64,000 nucleotides of DNA from contig NZ_JABCQO010000001.1 of NCBI RefSeq assembly GCF_015244675.1, positions 496,001 to 560,000 on the forward strand, given 5' to 3'. Source of the stretch: Gluconobacter cerevisiae (lineage in GTDB: Bacteria > Pseudomonadota > Alphaproteobacteria > Acetobacterales > Acetobacteraceae). The notes beneath the pieces are model-generated. The model did not search any database. It was not told where the DNA came from and saw only the letters and a list, made by a program, of their open reading frames with translations. Positions 45,666 through 56,193 of the stretch are shown here, in pieces (within the stretch, counting starts at the first letter, position 1; each line of letters opens with the position of its first letter). The translations under genes and the position numbers were made by a program.

Positions 45666-46196
45666 CTATGTCGGCCCTCGGCCCAGTTTCGACAAGACGA
45701 TATGTGCAACATCTTCGCTGACGAAGGGCGAAATATCCCCTCCCAGCCGTGCGATTTCCTTCACAATGCGGCTGGCCGTACTGCGATGCTCTTCTGAAGA
45801 GAGCAGGAAAACCGTCTCGATTTCGGGCGCCAGACGACGCAACGCGCCCGAAAGCTGGCTCTCGTAATCGAAGTCCCCACCAGAACGCAGCCCACGCACA
45901 ACCGTCCCTGCGCCCGCCTGACGGACAGCATCCACAAGCAGCGTATCGAAGCCAACAACCTCGACCCGCTCCCCATGCGGCAGCTTGTCCACCTCACGCC
46001 GCAGAGCCGAGAGCCGCGCCTCCAGATCCAGAAGCGGCTGCTTGCCTTCATTGACCGCCACCCCGACCAGCAGCCGGTCGAACAGCGCGGAGGCCCTGTG
46101 GATGATGTCCAGATGCCCGAACGTAACCGGATCGAACGTGCCGGGATAAAACCCGACACGCGGATCCGTCCGCGCCTCAGGCGTCAGGTGCAGCAT
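45666..46196 (-). CDS. coaD: phosphopantetheine adenylyltransferase
   Basis: A 176-aa nucleotidyltransferase of CoA synthesis (4'-phosphopantetheine to dephospho-CoA). It has the GxFDPxTxGHxxI motif as [30 protein letters not shown] at about residues 103-114 and the [19 protein letters not shown] region with the SSxxxR motif. The start at 46196 overlaps the last 20 bases of gyrA, which fits an operon; a longer frame inside gyrA is rejected. Confidence 0.95.
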
Positions 46197-48975
46197 CGTC
46201 ACCAGCGGCAGGAGCTTCGGAGACCACAGTCTCGTCGGCATCGCCCTCTTCCGTGTCATCTTCCAGAACCGGGAAGACGCAGATGACGGTTTCGCTGTCA
46301 TTCAGGCGGAACAGTGTCACGCCACTGGCCTGACGCGCCATGACGCGCACCTGCGAGACCGGCAGACGGATCAGACGCCCCGTATCCGTGACCAACATGA
46401 CATCCGTACCATCAAGCGTCGGCAGCGTGCCCACCACTTCCTTGCCGCGACGGTTCGCAGAGAAGGTCATGTTGGTAATGCCCTGACCGCCACGGCCCGA
46501 CACACGGTAATCATAAGCCGAGGAGCGGCGGCCAAAGCCACCATCCGTCACGGTCAGAAGAATTTCTTCCTGCTGTTCCAGCTCCTCGAAGCGCTCCTGC
46601 GTCAGATCACCGACGATTTCGACAGTTTCTTCATCACCGGAGACGGCCTCGTCCTCGGCGCCATCTTCCAGAACCGCATTTTCAGCACGGCGCTTGGCAT
46701 TGGCCATCCGCAGATAAGCTGCGCGTTCCTCGACACTGGCGTCGACGTGATTGAGGATACACAGCGAAATCACTGCATCGCCGTCGCCCAGACGGATGCC
46801 GCGCACGCCTGTGCTGCCACGACCGGCGAACACGCGCAGCGTCTCATCCGTAATCTGGAAGCGGATGCAGCGCGCGTTCTTCGTGGCCAGGAACACGTCC
46901 TGACCCTCACGGCAGGTCGCCACACCGATGAGGGAATCCCCTTCATCCAGCTTCATGGCAATCAGGCCGGACGCACGGATATTGCGGAAATCGCTCAGAC
47001 GGTTACGACGCACATTGCCGCTGGCCGTGGCGAAGGCGAGGTGCAGGTCGTCCCACAGTTCCTCATCCTGCGGCAGGGGCAGAACAGCCGTGATGGAATC
47101 CGTTCCCAACTCCGGCAGCAGGTTGACCAGCGCACGGCCCTTAGCGGTCGGCGCGGCTTCCGGCAGGTGCCAGACCTTCATCCGGTAGGCCTTGCCGCCC
47201 GAAGAGAAGAACATCACCCACTGATGCGTATGAGCGTTGAAACTACGGATAATCACGTCATCGCCACGGCGACCCGAGGCCGTGCGGCCGCGACCACCCC
47301 GGTTCTGTGATCGGAAAATCTCCAGCGGCGTGCGCTTGATGAAACCGTCGCGCGTGATAGTCACAACCATCTGCCCCGGCTCGATCAGGCTTTCATCCGT
47401 CTGGTCACCCAGTGCATCGGAGATTTCCGTCGCACGCGGTGTTGCAACTTCCGCACGGGCCGCCAGAAGCTCCTCGCGCATGACTTCCATCCGGCGCGGA
47501 CGGCTCTCGATGATCTGAAGCAGCTCGCCGATCTTGACGGCAACGTCACCCAGTTCGCCCTGGATCTTTTCCCGCTCCAGACCCGTCAGGCGTTGCAGGC
47601 GAAGCTCCAGAATGCCACGCGCCTGCGCTTCCGTCAGACGGACCTTGCCATCGATGATGACATTGCCTTCATCATGGATCAGTTCGAGCAGCGGAATGAC
47701 TTCCGAAGCGTCCCATTCCCGCGCCATCAGCGACTCACGGGCCGTGGCAGCATCGGGAGCCGCACGGATCAGCGCGATGACTTCATCGATATTGGCAACA
47801 GCCAGAACAAGACCAACCAGCAGATGCCCGCGATCACGGGCCTTGTTCAGATCGAACCGGGCGCGGCGCAGAATGACTTCTTCGCGGAAGCGCAGGAAGG
47901 CTTCCAGAATGTCTTTGAGTCCCATCGTCCGCGGCTTGCCGTCGTCCAGCGCCAGCATGTTGGCGCTGAAAGAGGTCTGAAGCTGCGTGAAGCGGTAGAG
48001 CTGGTTCAGCACCACATCCGGTGTCGCATCGCGCTTGAGCTCGATGACAACGCGCATCCCGGAGCGATCGGACTCGTCGCGGATGTCGGAAATACCTTCG
48101 ATTTCCTTGGCCCGGACCAGATCGGCGATCTTTTCCTGCAACGTGGCCTTGTTCACCTGATACGGAATCTCGGTGATGATGATGGCCTGACGGTCCTTGC
48201 GGATTTCCTCGATCTCGGCACGTGCCCGCACCGGAATGGACCCACGACCCGTCTCATAGGCGCGACGGATACCGCTCCGTCCCATGATGATGCTGCCCGT
48301 CGGGAAATCCGGCCCCGGGATGATCTGCATCAGCTCATCAAGTTCGATGGCCGGATTGGCAATCATCGCCAGCGTAGCATCAATGACTTCGCCCGGATTA
48401 TGGGGCGGGATATTGGTCGCCATACCGACGGCAATACCGGCCGCACCATTGACGAGCAGATTCGGGAAAACCGCAGGCAGAACCTTCGGCTCGTTCTCGC
48501 TCTCGTCATAGTTAGGCTGAAAATCAACGGTATCGCGGTCAATATCGTCCAGCAGGAAGGACGACGCCTTGGCCAGACGCGCCTCGGTATAACGCATGGC
48601 AGCCGGGCTATCGCCATCGACCGATCCGAAATTACCCTGACCATCGATCAGCTTGACGCGCATCGACCAGTGCTGCGCCATCCGGACCATGGCGTCATAG
48701 ATCGAGCTGTCACCATGCGGATGGTATTTACCCATCACATCACCGACAGCACGTGCGGATTTGCGATAGGGCTTGTCAGCCGTAAAGCCACTTTCACGCA
48801 TGGCATAGAGGATACGGCGATGAACCGGCTTCAGGCCGTCCCGCACATCCGGCAGAGCGCGCGATACGATCACGGACATCGCATAAGCCAGATAGGAGGA
48901 GCGCATTTCCTCCTCGATCGTCACAGGAAGACGGCCGGAAGAGGGCAGATCAGTCGGCTCGGTCAGCTCGGTCAA
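46177..48975 (-). CDS. gyrA: DNA gyrase subunit A
   Basis: A 932-aa type IIA topoisomerase subunit. The breakage-reunion domain has the catalytic Tyr region ([13 protein letters not shown] upstream; RYTEARL) and the quinolone-resistance region [14 protein letters not shown] with the sensitive-type Ser and Asp. The C-terminal wrapping domain has the GyrA-box-like [12 protein letters not shown] and an acidic insertion ([17 protein letters not shown]) usual in alphaproteobacteria. The frame begins at TTG 48975 with a weak GGTGA site; no better ATG lies near the conserved [14 protein letters not shown] start. Confidence 0.97.
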
Positions 48976-49250
48976 GACAGGTCACCACACTAGAATTCAG
49001 TTTCTCCAGCATATCGCATGCGTCGTCATCACGCCACACCCGGTGCTGTGAAGCACATTCACCCTTAGTCGAAATCCCGGCCCAGAAGAGTTCGACAAGT
49101 GAAGTCGACAAACGAAAGATTAACGAAGTTCTCCAAAATACAGACGAGCGTTAACATCTTATTAACTTGCGGGTACTAATTGAACACGTTAGCAATTCCC
49201 AAACACACTCCGGCGAGTCCGTGCCGGAACTTTTTCGGAAAGATCTCCTC
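48976..49250. other. divergent intergenic region between gyrA and the Hint protein gene
   Basis: A 275-bp gap with no gene. It is AT-rich from about 49090 to 49200 and carries a CtrA-type site at 49151-49166 (listed separately). The gyrA promoter must lie in the left part; no clear -35/-10 pair was picked out. Confidence 0.45.
49151..49166 (+). promoter_or_regulatory. CtrA-type binding site TTAA-N7-TTAAC
   Basis: TTAA at 49151-49154, seven bases, TTAAC at 49162-49166: an exact match to the alphaproteobacterial CtrA consensus. It is 84 bp before the Hint-protein ATG and is also a GTTAA/TTAAC inverted repeat. CtrA is the cell-cycle/motility response regulator. Confidence 0.5.
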
Positions 49251-52200
49251 ATGGCCGATACAACCACCGACGACACCACGCCCGCCGGCAGTGACAACAC
49301 CAATTACAACACCACAGAAACCAGCTATCATGAGCACGACTACTCATGGCGCTGGGCAGGCCCGACAACAGGCGGCGACTGGACCGATCCCAGCAACTGG
49401 GTTCTGACCGATGCCGGCCGTACGGTTGATACATCTTCCGACGCTTTCAGCGGAACTCCCATTCCCCAGAGCGAGCAGAATGCTGACGTCAACGTCGGAT
49501 TTTACGGAAACCCGACACCGAACGTCGTCGTCTCCAATGCCGTTCTCTACAATCAGATCCGCAGCCTCAGCGTCTGGCAGAACAGCACCCTGAAAATCAC
49601 CGCACAGGGTGGAAACGGTAACGTTTTCGCAACGGCCGGTCTTCAGAACAACGGCACCATCATCATCGACACCCCGTCCAAGGTCGAACTCGGCGGCGTG
49701 ACGTCGGGCAATGGCACCCTGACGATCCTGAACAACAACGGAAATGTGGCGTTTGACGACGGGCAGCTGAACAACGGCACGCTCAACCTCGTCAATTCAA
49801 GCCTCGGCACTCTTGCAACGCCCATCAGCGTTTCCGGCGGCACGATCAATCTTCAGCAGAACAGCACGCTCATTGCGAACCTGTATGGCGAAGGCTCCAC
49901 GATCAACGTCGACCCGGCAACCGTCAACACGCTGTATGTCAACGACCGCTTCTCCAACAGCAGCGGCTCCGTCCAGAACACCGTCATCAATGGTGTCTCC
50001 GAGAACACCCATTTCGGCATCCTGAGCGGCTCCTCCAAGCCGATCTCGGCCACGTATGAAGCCAACACCGACGGCTCCTACACGCTGACGATCACTCTCG
50101 ATAACGGCCACGCCATCACCTATCCTACGGTTCACGTCGCAAACGGCTACACGCCTGCTGCACAGGCCACGATCGTACAGGACGGCTCGAAGGGTTGGCT
50201 CATCGAGGACGCCGGCACGACGACAGCCCCGGCTTCTTATGTCACCAGCGACCTGCATCAGCAGCTTGCCGCAACGGCAGCGACAGCAGCAGCGGCCGGT
50301 GGTGATCCCTCGCAGTACAGCAACAACGCCATCGGATACCATACGCACGACAACACATGGCGCTGGACCGGTTCTGCCACGGGTGGGGACTGGTACGATC
50401 CGAAGAACTGGACGCTGTATGACGGTCGCGGCAACGTCGCTGACACTTCCGGCAGCTCCTTCAGCGGCAATGCCGTTCCGCAGAGCGAACAGAATGCTGA
50501 CGTCAATGTCGGCTATTACGGCAACACCACGCCGAGCGTCGTCGTCGCCAACGCGCCGTCCTACAACCAGATCCGCAGCCTCAGCGTCTGGCAGAACAGC
50601 ACGCTGGAAATTACTGCGCAGGGTGGCAGCACCTATAACGGCTACGTCTTCACGACGGCTGGTTTCGAGAACAGCGGCACGATCCTGATCAACACGCCGT
50701 CCAAGGTCGAACTCGGCGGCATCGCGATGAACCGTGACGACGGCACCATCACGATCATGAACAACGACAACAACGTCGTGTTCGATACAAACAGCGTCAA
50801 TAATGGCGGCACGATCAATCTGATCAACGCCACGCTGGGCTCTGCCACCAACGCGCTTTGGGTCAATGGCGGCATCGTCAATCTTTCGCAGAACAGCGGC
50901 CTGTTCCTGTATCCGAGCGAGTCCATCAACACCATCAATGTTGATCCGAACACGGTCAACACGGTGTACGTTGAAGCCAACGGCTTCCTGCATAACGATT
51001 CATCGAATGCTCAGGGCGTCGTGATCAACGGTGTGTCCTCCAACACACATTTCGGCATCTCCGGTGTGTCTTCCGCCCCGACGGCTGCCACCTACACGCC
51101 GAATACAGATGGTTCCTACACGCTTCAGGTCACACTGGCTGACGGCCGCCTGATCACCTTCGGCAACATTCACACGGCAAGCGGCTTCGTCCCCGCCGCC
51201 AATGCGTCCATCGTTCAGGACGGCAGCAATGGCTGGATCGTCGAAGACAACGGCAATGCGCCCTGCTTCCTCGCTGGCAGCATGATCCGCACGCCGGAAG
51301 GCGATGTGGCCGTCGAGACCCTGCGCCTCGGCAACACGGTTCTGGCCTTCGTGAACGGCGAAACCGTTGAGCGCAAAGTCACCTGGGCTGGCCGCTCCCA
51401 CATGATCGCCAAGGCCGGTCTGGCCGACGCGGAAGCCGGTTATCCGGTCCGCATCATGCAGGGCGCACTCGCCGAAGGCGTGCCTTACAAGGACATGCTG
51501 GTCACTCCGGAACACTGCCTGTTCATCAATGGCGGTTTCATCCCGGCCCGTATGCTCGTGAATGGTCGTTCGGTGGTCTATGACCGCTCCATCGCCGTCT
51601 ATGACTACTTCCATGTAGAAACGGCCGAACACTCGGTCATCATGGCAGACGGCATGCTGACGGAAAGCTACCTCGACACCGGCAACCGCCAGTCCTTCCG
51701 TCAGGATGGCAGCGTTGTTTCGCTGGGTGGCCGCGAGCGCAACTGGAATGACGACGCAGCAGCCCCGCTGTCCGTCAGCCGGGACGTGGTCGAGCCGATC
51801 TTCCGCGAAATCGAAGCCCGCGCCATCGCAGCAGGCCTCGAGAACACGGTTGCCGCTCCGGCTCTGACCGAAGACGCCAACCTGTACCTCGTCGCCAGCA
51901 CGGGCCAGACCATCCATCAGGTCCGCACCGCCAATGGCCGCGCGATGTTCATGATCCCGTCCGACGTGACAGGCGTTCGCATCGTGTCCCGTACCTCCAG
52001 CCCGAGCGAAACGGTCGGACCGTTCGTGGACGACCGTCGTCAGCTCGGTGTTCTGGTGGGTGAAGTCACACTGTTCGACTCGGGCAACACGATCCGCATC
52101 GATCAGCACCTGACGGACGCAGACCTGAACGGCTGGGATGTTCAAGAAAACACCCCAGTCCGCTGGACGAACGGCAACGCCATGCTGCCGCTGACGGTTC

Positions 52201-52295
52201 GTCAGCCGAACAGCCTTGGCATGCTCGCCATCCAGATCCTGGCCGCTGGCCCCTATCTGGTGACGTCAGAAGAAAACGCAGCCCTGACCGCCTGA
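49251..52295 (+). CDS. large surface-type protein: two ~300-aa repeats plus a Hint domain
   Basis: A 1014-aa protein. Repeat 1 spans about residues 27-320 and repeat 2 about 363-666; both start with a WRWxGxxTGGDWxDPxNW motif and share PQSEQNADVNVG and YNQIRSLSVWQNSTL, in an Asn/Thr/Gly-rich, beta-helix-like composition. An Ala-rich linker separates them. A Hint_2 (hedgehog/intein-like) domain follows at about 671-812, with Cys672 in PCFLAGSMIR and TPEHCLF holding the block-B His and Cys756; these are the only cysteines. A 200-aa C-terminal domain ends the protein. There is no N-terminal signal. Start at ATG 49251; a TTG at 49167 is less likely. Function unknown; self-cleavage and surface attachment are inferences. 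Confidence 0.8.
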   Translation: MADTTTDDTTPAGSDNTNYNTTETSYHEHDYSWRWAGPTTGGDWTDPSNWVLTDAGRTVDTSSDAFSGTPIPQSEQNADVNVGFYGNPTPNVVVSNAVLYNQIRSLSVWQNSTLKITAQGGNGNVFATAGLQNNGTIIIDTPSKVELGGVTSGNGTLTILNNNGNVAFDDGQLNNGTLNLVNSSLGTLATPISVSGGTINLQQNSTLIANLYGEGSTINVDPATVNTLYVNDRFSNSSGSVQNTVINGVSENTHFGILSGSSKPISATYEANTDGSYTLTITLDNGHAITYPTVHVANGYTPAAQATIVQDGSKGWLIEDAGTTTAPASYVTSDLHQQLAATAATAAAAGGDPSQYSNNAIGYHTHDNTWRWTGSATGGDWYDPKNWTLYDGRGNVADTSGSSFSGNAVPQSEQNADVNVGYYGNTTPSVVVANAPSYNQIRSLSVWQNSTLEITAQGGSTYNGYVFTTAGFENSGTILINTPSKVELGGIAMNRDDGTITIMNNDNNVVFDTNSVNNGGTINLINATLGSATNALWVNGGIVNLSQNSGLFLYPSESINTINVDPNTVNTVYVEANGFLHNDSSNAQGVVINGVSSNTHFGISGVSSAPTAATYTPNTDGSYTLQVTLADGRLITFGNIHTASGFVPAANASIVQDGSNGWIVEDNGNAPCFLAGSMIRTPEGDVAVETLRLGNTVLAFVNGETVERKVTWAGRSHMIAKAGLADAEAGYPVRIMQGALAEGVPYKDMLVTPEHCLFINGGFIPARMLVNGRSVVYDRSIAVYDYFHVETAEHSVIMADGMLTESYLDTGNRQSFRQDGSVVSLGGRERNWNDDAAAPLSVSRDVVEPIFREIEARAIAAGLENTVAAPALTEDANLYLVASTGQTIHQVRTANGRAMFMIPSDVTGVRIVSRTSSPSETVGPFVDDRRQLGVLVGEVTLFDSGNTIRIDQHLTDADLNGWDVQENTPVRWTNGNAMLPLTVRQPNSLGMLAIQILAAGPYLVTSEENAALTA

Positions 52296-52314
52296 AGCCA
52301 GTCAGTCTGAAACG

Positions 52315-52351
52315 AAAAAACCTCACCCTTTCGAGGGTGAGGTTTTTTTTT
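52315..52351 (+). terminator. terminator after the Hint protein gene
   Basis: A perfect CCTCACCC/GGGTGAGG stem (52321-52342) with a 6-nt loop flanked by A6 and T9. Confidence 0.93.
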
Positions 52352-52370
52352 GGTCTACACCACAGTCACA

Positions 52371-52403
52371 AAAAACCCCGGAGGCCTGAGCCTCCGGGGT
52401 TTT
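52371..52403 (-). terminator. terminator of ssb
   Basis: A perfect 10-bp stem CCCCGGAGGC/GCCTCCGGGG (52376-52385, 52390-52399) with a 4-nt loop, with T5 on the minus strand; 32 bp after the ssb stop. Confidence 0.9.
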
Positions 52404-52434
52404 CAACATTCAAGAGCCGTATGCGACCCTGAAC

Positions 52435-53019
52435 TCAGAACGGAATTTCATCATCCAGATCGTTGTCCGGCGGGGCATCCCAGCCGCCATTGCTGCCACC
52501 TGAACGACCGCCGCCAGAAGCTCCGCCGGAATTCCCACGGGAACCACCAAAGCCACCGCCCGAACCGCCAGCGGAGCCACCACGGCTACCACCACCAAAG
52601 CCGCCGCTATTGCCACCGCCATAGCCGCCGCCGTTGTCAAAGCCACCATCATCGCCGCCACCGCTGCGATTGCTGTCGATCAGCACCAGATCCCCACGGA
52701 ACCGGTCGATCACAACTTCAGTCGTGTATTTTTCCTGCCCGGACTGGTCGGTCCACTTCCGGGTGCGGAGTTCACCTTCGATATAGACCTTGCGGCCCTT
52801 GCGCAGATAACGCTCGGCGACATCAGCCGTCCGCTCGTTGAAGATCACCACGCGATGCCACTCAGTGCGCTCTTTGCGCTCACCCGACTGCTTGTCGTTC
52901 CAGGTGTCGGACGTCGCAACGGTCAGGTTGACGATTTTGCCGCCCGACTGCGTGTTGCGAACTTCCGGGTCTTTCCCCAGATTTCCGACCAGAATCACCT
53001 TATTGACGCTGCCTGCCAT
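52435..53019 (-). CDS. ssb: single-stranded DNA-binding protein
   Basis: A 194-aa SSB. The N-terminal OB fold ([50 protein letters not shown]) covers about residues 1-115, then a very Gly/Ser-rich linker of about 65 residues, then the acidic tip DDEIPF that recruits replication and repair proteins. Start MAGSVNKV at 53019; an ATG five codons earlier is possible. It is divergent from uvrA, the classic pairing. Confidence 0.96.
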
Positions 53020-53148
53020 TCCCGTCCCAACCAATTTTCTCGAATTGTTCTTTTCATCCTATCCTAAACGCCCATCTATAATTGATCCAGCGCCCTTCAA
53101 GAGCGTTCCGCTTTCACAATCGCCTTTTCTCCACATTCCGGGGTCTCC

Positions 53149-56100
53149 GTGAGCTTTCCAGACAATCATTCGATCCGCGTCCGTGGGGCCCGCGCCCATA
53201 ACCTCAAAAACATTGACGCTACGATCCCGCGGGATTCCCTGACGATCATCACGGGCCTCTCAGGCTCCGGAAAATCCTCGCTGGCTTTCGACACGATCTA
53301 TGCCGAGGGGCAACGGCGCTATGTGGAAAGCCTTTCCGCCTATGCCCGCCAGTTTCTCGAGCTGATGGGCAAGCCGGACGTGGACTCCATCGAGGGCCTC
53401 TCCCCGGCCATCTCGATCGAGCAGAAAACTACGTCCAAGAACCCGCGTTCAACCGTGGGTACGATCACGGAAATCCACGACTACATGCGCCTGCTCTGGG
53501 CGCGCGTGGGCATCCCCTACTCTCCAGCGACTGGCCTTCCCATCGAAGCCCAGACCGTCAGCCAGATGGTGGACCGAATCATGGCCATGCCCGATGGCAT
53601 GCGCCTGATGCTGCTCGCCCCCGTCGTGCGGGACCGTAAGGGTGACTGCAAACGCGAACTCGCCGAACTGACGCGCAAGGGCTTCACCCGCGTGAAGATC
53701 GACGGTGAACTTTACGAAATCGCTGAAGCCCCCGAACTGAACCGCAAGACGCGCCATAACGTCGAAGTCGTCGTAGACCGGATCGTGGTCAAGGAAGGCC
53801 TCGAATCCCGCCTCGCCGACAGTTTCGAGACCGCCCTCGAACTCTCGGACGGTCTGGCCTACGCCGAGGAAGTCAAACGCGCGGGAGAAAAGGAATCTCC
53901 GGCGCATGTCGTTTTCTCGTCGCGCTTCGCCTGCCCCGTCTCCGGCTTCACGATCGAGGAAATCGAGCCGCGCCTGTTCTCCTTCAACGCCCCGATGGGC
54001 GCCTGCCCGGTCTGTGACGGCATCGGCACCGAAACCCATTTCGACGAAAACCTGATTGTCCCGGATGATAGCCTGACGCTGGCCGAGGGCGCCATCGCCC
54101 CGTGGAAGGGCGCCAGCACGGACTGGTATGACCAGACGCTTGCCGCTCTCGCCCGCCATTGCGGCGATGACATGCACACGCCCTGGTCCGACCTCCAGCC
54201 CGCCACGCAAGACCTCATCATCAACGGCTCGAAAGAGCCGATCGACATTCCCTATACCGATGGTGGGAAGGTCCACATCGTCACCAAACCGTTCGAGGGC
54301 GTGCTGAAGAACCTGCGCCGCCGCATGGCGCAAACCGACAGCATGTGGGTGCGTGAAGAACTGTCGCGCTATCAGTCTGAAAAACCCTGCCATGCCTGCC
54401 ACGGCGCACGCCTCAAACCCGAGGCGCTGTGCGTGAAGGTCAAAGACCTCAACATCGCCGAAGCCTCGGACATGCCGATCCGCAAGGCGCTCGACTGGTT
54501 CTCCGGCGTGGAAGCGACACTGACGCCCCAGCGCGCCGAAATCGCCCGCCGCATCCTGCGCGAAATCACGGACCGCCTACACTTCCTCGACGATGTGGGG
54601 CTGGACTACCTCACCCTCTCGCGCGGTTCCGCAACCCTGTCGGGCGGCGAGAGCCAGCGCATCCGTCTGGCATCGCAGATCGGTTCGGGCCTGACCGGTG
54701 TGTTGTATGTGCTGGACGAACCCTCCATCGGCCTGCACCAGCGCGACAATGAACGCCTGCTCGGCACGCTCGAACGCCTCAAGCGCCTCGGCAACACCGT
54801 CATCGTCGTCGAACATGATGAGGACGCCATCCGCGCCGCCGATTACCTGATCGACATGGGACCGGGCGCGGGCAAACTAGGCGGACAGGTCATCGCCGTC
54901 GGCACCCCGGCAGAAGTCGCCAAGAACCCCAACAGCATCACCGGCGCCTATCTGTCAGGCCGCAAGGTCATTCCCGTCCCGACCGAACGCCGCAAGCCCA
55001 GCGGCATGCTCACCCTGCACGGCGCACGCGGCAACAACCTCAAGGATCTGACGGTCGATTTCCCGCTCGGGACCTTCATCGCCGTCACGGGCGTTTCGGG
55101 TGGCGGCAAATCCACGCTCGTCATCGATACGCTCTATAAGGCGCTGTCCCGCCAGCTCATGAAATCGAGCCAGACGCCGCTGCCCTATGACCGTCTGGAA
55201 GGCGTGGACAATCTCGACAAGATCATCGAGATCGACCAGTCCCCGATCGGCCGCACCCCACGCTCCAACCCCGCAACCTATACGGACCTGTTCGCGCCAA
55301 TCCGAGACTGGTTCGCCGAACTGCCCGAGTCCAAGGCACGCGGCTACAAGCCGGGCCGCTTCTCCTTCAACGTGAAGGGCGGCCGCTGCGAAGCCTGTCA
55401 GGGCGACGGTGTTCTCAAGATCGAAATGCACTTCCTACCGGACGTGTACGTGACCTGCGACACCTGCAAAGGCGCACGCTACAACCGCGAAACGCTGGAA
55501 GTGAAGTTCCGCGGCAAATCCATTGCGGACGTCCTGTCCATGACCGTGGACGAGGCCCTGCCATTCTTTCAGGCTGCCCCGAAAATCCGCGACCGTCTCG
55601 CCATCCTGCAACAGGTCGGGCTGGGCTATGTCGCCCTCGGCCAGCAGGCCACAACGCTCTCGGGCGGTGAGGCCCAGCGCGTCAAGCTGTCAAAGGAACT
55701 GGCCAAACGCGCCACTGGCCGCACAGTCTATATCCTTGATGAGCCCACGACGGGCCTGCATACCGAAGACGTCCGCAAGCTGCTCGAAGTGCTGCACACC
55801 CTCGTCGATCAGGGCAACACGGTGCTGGTGATCGAGCACAATCTCGAAGTTATCAAAACAGCCGACTGGCTGATCGATATTGGCCCCGAGGGCGGTGACG
55901 GCGGCGGTCAGGTCGTCGCAGCTGGAACACCGGAAAACATCTCCGCGTGCAAAGCCAGCCATACCGGCCGCTTCCTCGCGCCGCTGCTGGACGCACCGGG
56001 CGCCAGACAGCCGCGCAAAGTCACGGCCACCAAAATCACACAAGCCATGCTCGCCGCCAGCCTGCCACCGCCAAAAGCCGAACGCACAGCCGCGAAAAAA

Positions 56101-56193
56101 GCAAAAGTCGCCAAAGAAAAAGCAGCGGAAAAGGCTCACGAAAAGAAGCCCAGAGGCCGCCCCGCCGGGTCCCGCAACAAAACCAAAGCCTGA
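53149..56193 (+). CDS. uvrA: excinuclease ABC subunit A
   Basis: A 1014-aa damage-recognition ATPase of nucleotide excision repair. Two ABC modules are seen: Walker [15 protein letters not shown] and [16 protein letters not shown], two signature LSGGE blocks, zinc-finger cysteines [15 protein letters not shown] and CEACQGDG...CDTCKGAR. Translation starts at GTG 53149. The last 55-60 residues exceed the usual length and are Lys/Ala-rich ([15 protein letters not shown]) ending with an AT-hook-like [13 protein letters not shown]. Confidence 0.96.

Follow-up and report, generated by a model that had tools for sequence, protein, structure and literature searches.

Gene locus and domain organization

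The gene described here occupies positions 49251..52295 on the plus strand of the window, the whole 64,000-nucleotide stretch of Gluconobacter cerevisiae DNA that was analysed, and stands alone between gyrA and ssb, both of which lie on the minus strand. Its reading frame is open and encodes a protein of 1014 amino acids, in which an N-terminal cargo part is followed by a Hint domain and a C-terminal domain (CTD), in agreement with the order of repeats, Hint_2 domain and C-terminal domain proposed in the first-pass annotation. The combined Hint and CTD region is 82-85% identical to that of the orthologues of Gluconobacter oxydans, Gluconobacter vitians, Gluconobacter roseus, and Gluconobacter potus, and gyrA adjoins each of the orthologues in four other Gluconobacter species. 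Comparison with four Gluconobacter orthologues gave dN/dS values of 0.09-0.21, indicating purifying selection in all three protein parts. The orthologues retained beside gyrA and these low ratios therefore identify a maintained gene and not a chance reading frame. A phage origin was rejected, as phage records gave no match. In four other Gluconobacter species ssb and uvrA are found on the opposite side of coaD, gyrA, and the Hint gene (45666-56193 in the window); this block has therefore been rearranged in one lineage. The 5' leader of the gene contains a GC-rich hairpin with a T-run (49209..49228, plus strand), located 22 bases before the start codon and conserved in five Gluconobacter species including those of orthologues L063-L066, which represents a possible leader terminator or attenuator.

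The N-terminal part of the protein comprises two beta-rich repeats, the first of which begins with the pattern W..GGDW.DP.NW and covers residues 5-322 (49263..50216, plus strand), while the second covers residues 342-668 (50274..51254, plus strand). Their alignment contains 188 identities in 318 positions (59%) and scores 961, compared with 70 +/- 11 and a maximum of 106 in 200 shuffled controls; at the DNA level, blastn reported a single long stretch of 81% identity over 282 columns. The duplication of about 300 residues described from the first reading is thus real, and at 59% identity the two units are homologous repeats rather than near-copies. Neither repeat matched a Pfam or NCBIfam family. 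The double-repeat form was also found in Acetobacter at 55-61% identity (L123, L130, and L137), and the two repeats probably constitute an adhesin or surface-layer-like cargo. Only two cysteines, Cys672 and Cys756, are present among the 1014 residues, as had been noted, and the strongly hydrophilic start of the protein offers no Sec-like hydrophobic segment, in line with the earlier view that an N-terminal export signal is absent.

The Hint domain and the predicted cleavage site

Residues 671-810 (51261..51680, plus strand) were assigned to Hint_2 (PF13403, E 1.8e-33) with a score of 116.4 bits against a gathering cut-off of 28.4 and coverage of positions 1-146 of the 147-position profile. An AlphaFold2 model of residues 667-1014 reached a mean pLDDT of 89 and a pTM of 0.83. 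In this predicted model, the Hint part matches the bacterial intein-like (BIL) domain 2lwy with a Z of 14.5 and an rmsd of 2.2 over 119 residues, as well as inteins and Hedgehog, the latter with Z of 11.4-11.6 (11.4 for 1at0); judged by these structural matches, the modelled domain belongs to the HINT fold superfamily.

The first Hint residue, Cys672 (51264..51266, plus strand), is the predicted nucleophile of an N-S acyl shift, and this position is Cys in 157 of 158 relatives and Ser in the remaining one. Block B is represented by T752-P-E-H755 (51504..51515, plus strand), where His755 is invariant (61/61) and position 752 is either Thr (31/31) or Ser (30/30). The conservation of Cys672 and of the block B His, whose loss in orthologues had been named as grounds for abandoning the cleavage proposal, is thus nearly complete. 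The second cysteine, Cys756 (51516..51518, plus strand), is kept in 27 of 31 members of the acetic-acid clade and replaced by Ala or Ser in the other four, and it is Ala in all 30 outer-clade relatives. It is therefore not a general or core catalytic residue or nucleophile, and a general role for it is rejected. In the block F region (51612..51668, plus strand), H788-x-E790...H794 is followed by Thr804-Glu805-Ser806 in place of the His-Asn end of inteins, and His788, Glu790, His794, and Glu805 were all found in 61/61 sequences, which agrees with the initial observation that no terminal Asn for splicing is present.

Since Thr-Glu-Ser stands where inteins have His-Asn, splicing is unlikely and cleavage at the N-terminus of the Hint domain is the expected chemistry; protein splicing and intein membership were rejected on the missing block G His-Asn end. 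The earlier preference for predicted cleavage at Cys672 over splicing is likewise favoured by the conservation of Cys1, the first Hint residue, and of the block B His. The residue that precedes Cys1 was Val in 53, Ala in 25, Thr in 15, Ile in 10, Pro in 7, and Lys in 4 of 116 sequences from the acetic-acid clade, and Pro in 19 and Ala in 11 of 33 other relatives, and Gly was found in none of these 149 sequences. Pro precedes Cys672 in the window protein. In intein fusions, beta-branched residues or Pro before Cys1 slow the thioester step, which suggests that cleavage here is slow or triggered. Cleavage at Cys672 may accordingly be slow, triggered, or dependent on a folded partner domain; the preceding residue is evidence against fast spontaneous cleavage and not against the site. 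In a Brytella acorum relative (L071:7602-8000), a His/Cys-rich run, HHHHHEHCCPAHHHHGCH, ends the N-terminal part immediately ahead of Cys1 and could form a metal site where cleavage is predicted.

The C-terminal domain and tail

In the window protein Hint_2 is followed by the CTD of about 190 amino acids, with its beta-rich domain at residues 826-1000 (51726..52250, plus strand). When modelled alone, this domain was predicted with a pLDDT of 92 as a beta-rich structure with one long helix. None of 91 members showed a Pfam family match in the CTD, and Foldseek returned no match to its fold at E<=0.001; the best VIA Z was 5.5, to the unrelated Hikeshi. A carbohydrate-binding function was considered and rejected, the weak beta-sandwich matches (CBM35, Z 4.5) being too low for fold assignment, and the missing structural match does not make the CTD a new fold. 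The CTD was located behind a Hint domain in 97 of 100 places, and its interpretation as a free domain was discarded, since of the three exceptions two are short copies that share an Acetobacter genome and the third is truncated by the end of a contig. The stand-alone CTD-like frames of about 150 amino acids in that one Acetobacter genome (L202:4614-5024 and L201:691-1098) lie just downstream of Hint genes and are either remnants or separate small proteins.

The protein closes with a low-confidence tail (52257..52292, plus strand; pLDDT 39 at the end of the model of residues 667-1014) that ends in A-L-T-A and conforms to a family motif A-x-[TSR]-A at the C-terminus. The last residue is Ala in 85 of 112 sequences and the residue at -4 is Ala in 53 of 112, against a background of 11%, an enrichment that p-values would overstate because the sequences are related. 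The motif may act in export or as a recognition tag of another kind.

Taxonomic distribution and variable N-terminal parts

In tblastn searches the Hint domain and CTD matched as one unit while the N-terminal part varied. The 131 N-terminal parts fell into 28 groups that share no detectable similarity at the chosen cut-off; the three largest have 44, 25, and 17 members, and the window protein belongs to the third. Among 73 representatives, 14 N-terminal parts matched the AIDA-I model and 13 matched the strand-loop-strand repeat that is a target of O-heptosylation, and one part each matched a serralysin carrying RTX repeats, a trypsin-like protease, a GH17 glycosidase, or a phage collar domain. 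In the serralysin metalloprotease with RTX repeats (L020), Hint takes the place at the end of the protein where the usual C-terminal export signal would be. Cysteine accounts for 50 of 47,127 residues in the N-terminal parts (0.11%) versus 627 of 51,721 residues in the Hint and CTD regions (1.2%). Eight of 124 N-terminal parts exceeded a simple hydropathy cut-off for Sec-like starts and, by eye, these lacked the usual basic start. From the extracellular-type families, the scarcity of cysteine, and the rarity of Sec-like starts we infer an extracellular cargo that is exported independently of Sec. The ordinary cysteine content of the Hint and CTD region would also fit that region remaining in the cell. 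The adhesin-like, exported character proposed for the N-terminal part is supported: relatives place AIDA/strand-loop-strand repeats or a serralysin/RTX protease before this tail, and the N-terminal parts are nearly free of Cys and lack Sec signals.

A gene for a TibC-type O-heptosyltransferase (TIGR04414, E 8e-167) adjoins one relative, and TibC-like genes were identified near five more loci, one of which follows a homologue of the window repeat protein in Acetobacter pomorum (L137). The own genome gave no TibC match, and heptosylation of the window protein by TibC is not claimed.

Up to 18 or more copies of the module occur per genome. Within a class-wide sample of 289 alphaproteobacterial genomes the CTD is confined to Acetobacteraceae, and one Rhizobium rhizogenes plasmid protein aligns across 96% of the Hint and CTD region. 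Hint_2 itself also occurs in Rhizobiales and Rhodobacterales, so that the proposed specificity to acetic acid bacteria fails for Hint_2 and holds for the pair of Hint and CTD, which is essentially an Acetobacteraceae trait. Two plasmid loci are of separate note: on the 3.85-kb Acetobacter pasteurianus plasmid NC_021979.1 (L191:1-3851) the only annotated genes encode a transposase and a Hint protein, and a Phyllobacterium plasmid (L193:1-12435) carries a Hint_2 gene within a polysaccharide export and glycosyltransferase cluster.

Association with a type I secretion operon

The own genome contains one clear type I operon, which encodes an ABC protein, HlyD, a Sel1-repeat protein, two glycosyltransferases, and an unknown protein. 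Its ABC protein, encoded at G000:C1:302111-304330, is closest to HlyB, scoring under the cut-off of that model, while HlyD scores above its cut-off; as read from the sequence, the ABC protein has an N-terminal C39-like part without Cys at the usual catalytic site. At L151:3308-14331 a conserved operon comprises a type I ABC gene, HlyD, a Sel1-repeat protein, a glycosyltransferase of about 990 amino acids, an unknown protein, and a second glycosyltransferase, an arrangement that looks like coupled glycosylation and export.

In 200 Acetobacteraceae genomes, a close orthologue of the ABC protein was detected in 127 of 156 Hint_2-positive versus 12 of 44 Hint_2-negative genomes (odds ratio 11.7, p 4e-11), where weak matches of about 40% identity were excluded by hand as paralogues. 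The orthologue was present in 68 of the 72 genomes with six or more Hint_2 genes, and the association persisted with one genome per genus (odds ratio 8.6, p 3.7e-5), a test in which kinship is only roughly controlled. The operon was next to a Hint gene at none of 80 flanked loci and lies some kilobases from one in a few genomes; dedicated type I genes beside the Hint genes were rejected, none being found at those 80 loci. With kinship roughly controlled and linkage loose, type I export is therefore favoured yet unproved, and the type I option raised initially gains circumstantial support, since one conserved operon of this type co-occurs with Hint_2. Observations bearing on type I secretion are the lack of a Sec signal in the window protein, the type I operon in its genome, the co-occurrence across genomes, and the A-x-[TSR]-A tail, which may or may not be an export signal. 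Serralysin/RTX proteins are a classical class of type I substrates, and the serralysin/RTX cargo of the family would also point to type I export. The single RTX-type protein of the own genome (L198:685-2070) has no Hint domain and may likewise be exported by the type I operon; inspected by eye, it does not share the tail motif.

Comparison with known Hint systems

Type B BILs lack the C-terminal motif, keep motifs A, B, and F, and are cleaved at the N-terminus (PMC7765530, PMC4031507). Compared with this published description, and with motif F assigned by inspection, the window Hint carries the type B set, and the resemblance extends to its bacterial origin, N-terminal Cys, TxxH, missing His-Asn end, and variable host proteins. 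Unlike type B BILs, the window family adds a conserved CTD behind Hint and the A-x-[TSR]-A tail. The order of cargo, Hint, and extra domain, the Cys at the first Hint position, and the fold match are shared with Hedgehog Hog domains, whereas the CTD behind Hint has no significant fold or Pfam match and was not found to be related to the sterol recognition region, Gly never precedes Cys1 in the 149 relatives, and no link to sterols is seen. By profile and motifs the window protein belongs to Hint_2 and is no intein, and membership of the Hog family is not claimed.

The Hint_2 proteins of Rhodobacterales and Rhizobiales share PF13403 and align at the first Hint residue and in the TxxH region, but most matches outside Acetobacteraceae span Hint alone, about 40% of the Hint and CTD region. 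HINT peptidases of polymorphic toxins similarly free a part of an exported protein (PMC3482391); however, in those proteins a variable C-terminal toxin comes after Hint, while in the window family it is the N-terminal part that varies and the C-terminal domain that stays the same. AIDA/Ag43 strand-loop-strand adhesins with TibC resemble part of the family in their cargo repeats and TIGR04414 neighbours, but the window family lacks the Sec signal and the autotransporter barrel. An autotransporter (type V) assignment was rejected, with no barrel family in the window protein or the CTD and no Sec signal. Searches of an open-access library returned one passing mention of an acetic acid bacteria Hint protein, its function given as unknown (PMC11999647). 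The window protein is conserved and belongs to a large Acetobacteraceae family of which little has been described, an under-studied variant of bacterial Hint proteins.

Proposed mechanism and alternative explanations

From the observed architecture, predicted fold, conservation, and purifying selection we infer a scheme for export, its route and timing, and cleavage. The protein would be made without a Sec signal and then exported, most likely through the conserved type I operon, of which there is a single one, and the CTD together with the A-x-[TSR]-A tail would serve as the targeting part. In an N-S acyl shift, Hint would move the peptide bond before Cys672 onto the side chain of that residue; attack by water or a small thiol, the simplest case, would then open the thioester and separate the cargo from Hint and CTD. 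We consider it about an even call that this reading as a whole, a variable extracellular cargo on a fixed Hint and CTD module, exported by type I secretion and cut before Cys672, is correct.

A variant that we regard as unlikely holds that the cargo is anchored at the surface through Hint and CTD and is cut only when triggered, for instance by thiols or pH, then being released or shed. The predominance of Val, Thr, Ile, Pro, and Ala before Cys1 and the strong conservation of the catalytic residues are consistent with such a latent switch, as is the fact that acetic acid bacteria are acid producers, but the CTD contains no known anchor segment. Equally improbable, in our judgement, is export by another route, for example through an outer-membrane translocator for beta-helical cargo, with Hint and CTD as an unrelated processing unit. 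The N-terminal parts resemble type V passengers in the AIDA and Ag43 models, and 29 Hint_2-positive genomes have no close orthologue of the type I ABC protein; against this, the family proteins showed neither a Sec signal nor a TpsA domain or an autotransporter barrel, and the serralysin/RTX cargo points to type I.

Hedgehog-like ligation, in which a nucleophile selected by the CTD (a lipid, hopanoid, glycan, or amine) opens the Cys672 thioester and the cargo becomes covalently attached to the envelope, is possible but unsupported, and we think it decidedly unlikely. Hedgehog and its relatives have the same domain order, with the adduct recognition region behind Hint (PMC2362128), a place held by the CTD in nearly all of its occurrences, and hydrolysis-resistant residues before Cys1 would fit a dedicated acceptor. 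However, the CTD has no detected sequence or fold similarity to known adduct-binding regions, cleavage by type B BILs is not accompanied by ligation (PMC4031507), and no conserved acceptor or partner gene lies nearby. The broader claim of a bacterial equivalent of Hedgehog processing in Acetobacteraceae, a general anchoring system other than sortase in which the CTD selects a specific envelope molecule and Hint and CTD join many unrelated cargoes to it, we hold to be more doubtful still. A cytosolic, non-cleaving protein with Hint as a merely structural end domain, which would agree with the slow-cleavage residue before Cys1, is very improbable given the nearly invariant catalytic residues in 158 relatives, the Cys-poor extracellular-type cargo, and the glycosyltransferase neighbours.

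If the preferred reading of type I export and cleavage before Cys672 is true, a plug-in C-terminal module used across the family would couple Sec-independent export to self-cleavage for many cargoes. It makes directly testable what purpose Hint domains serve in bacterial proteins other than inteins and toxins, and whether any bacterial Hint transfers its cargo to a nucleophile.
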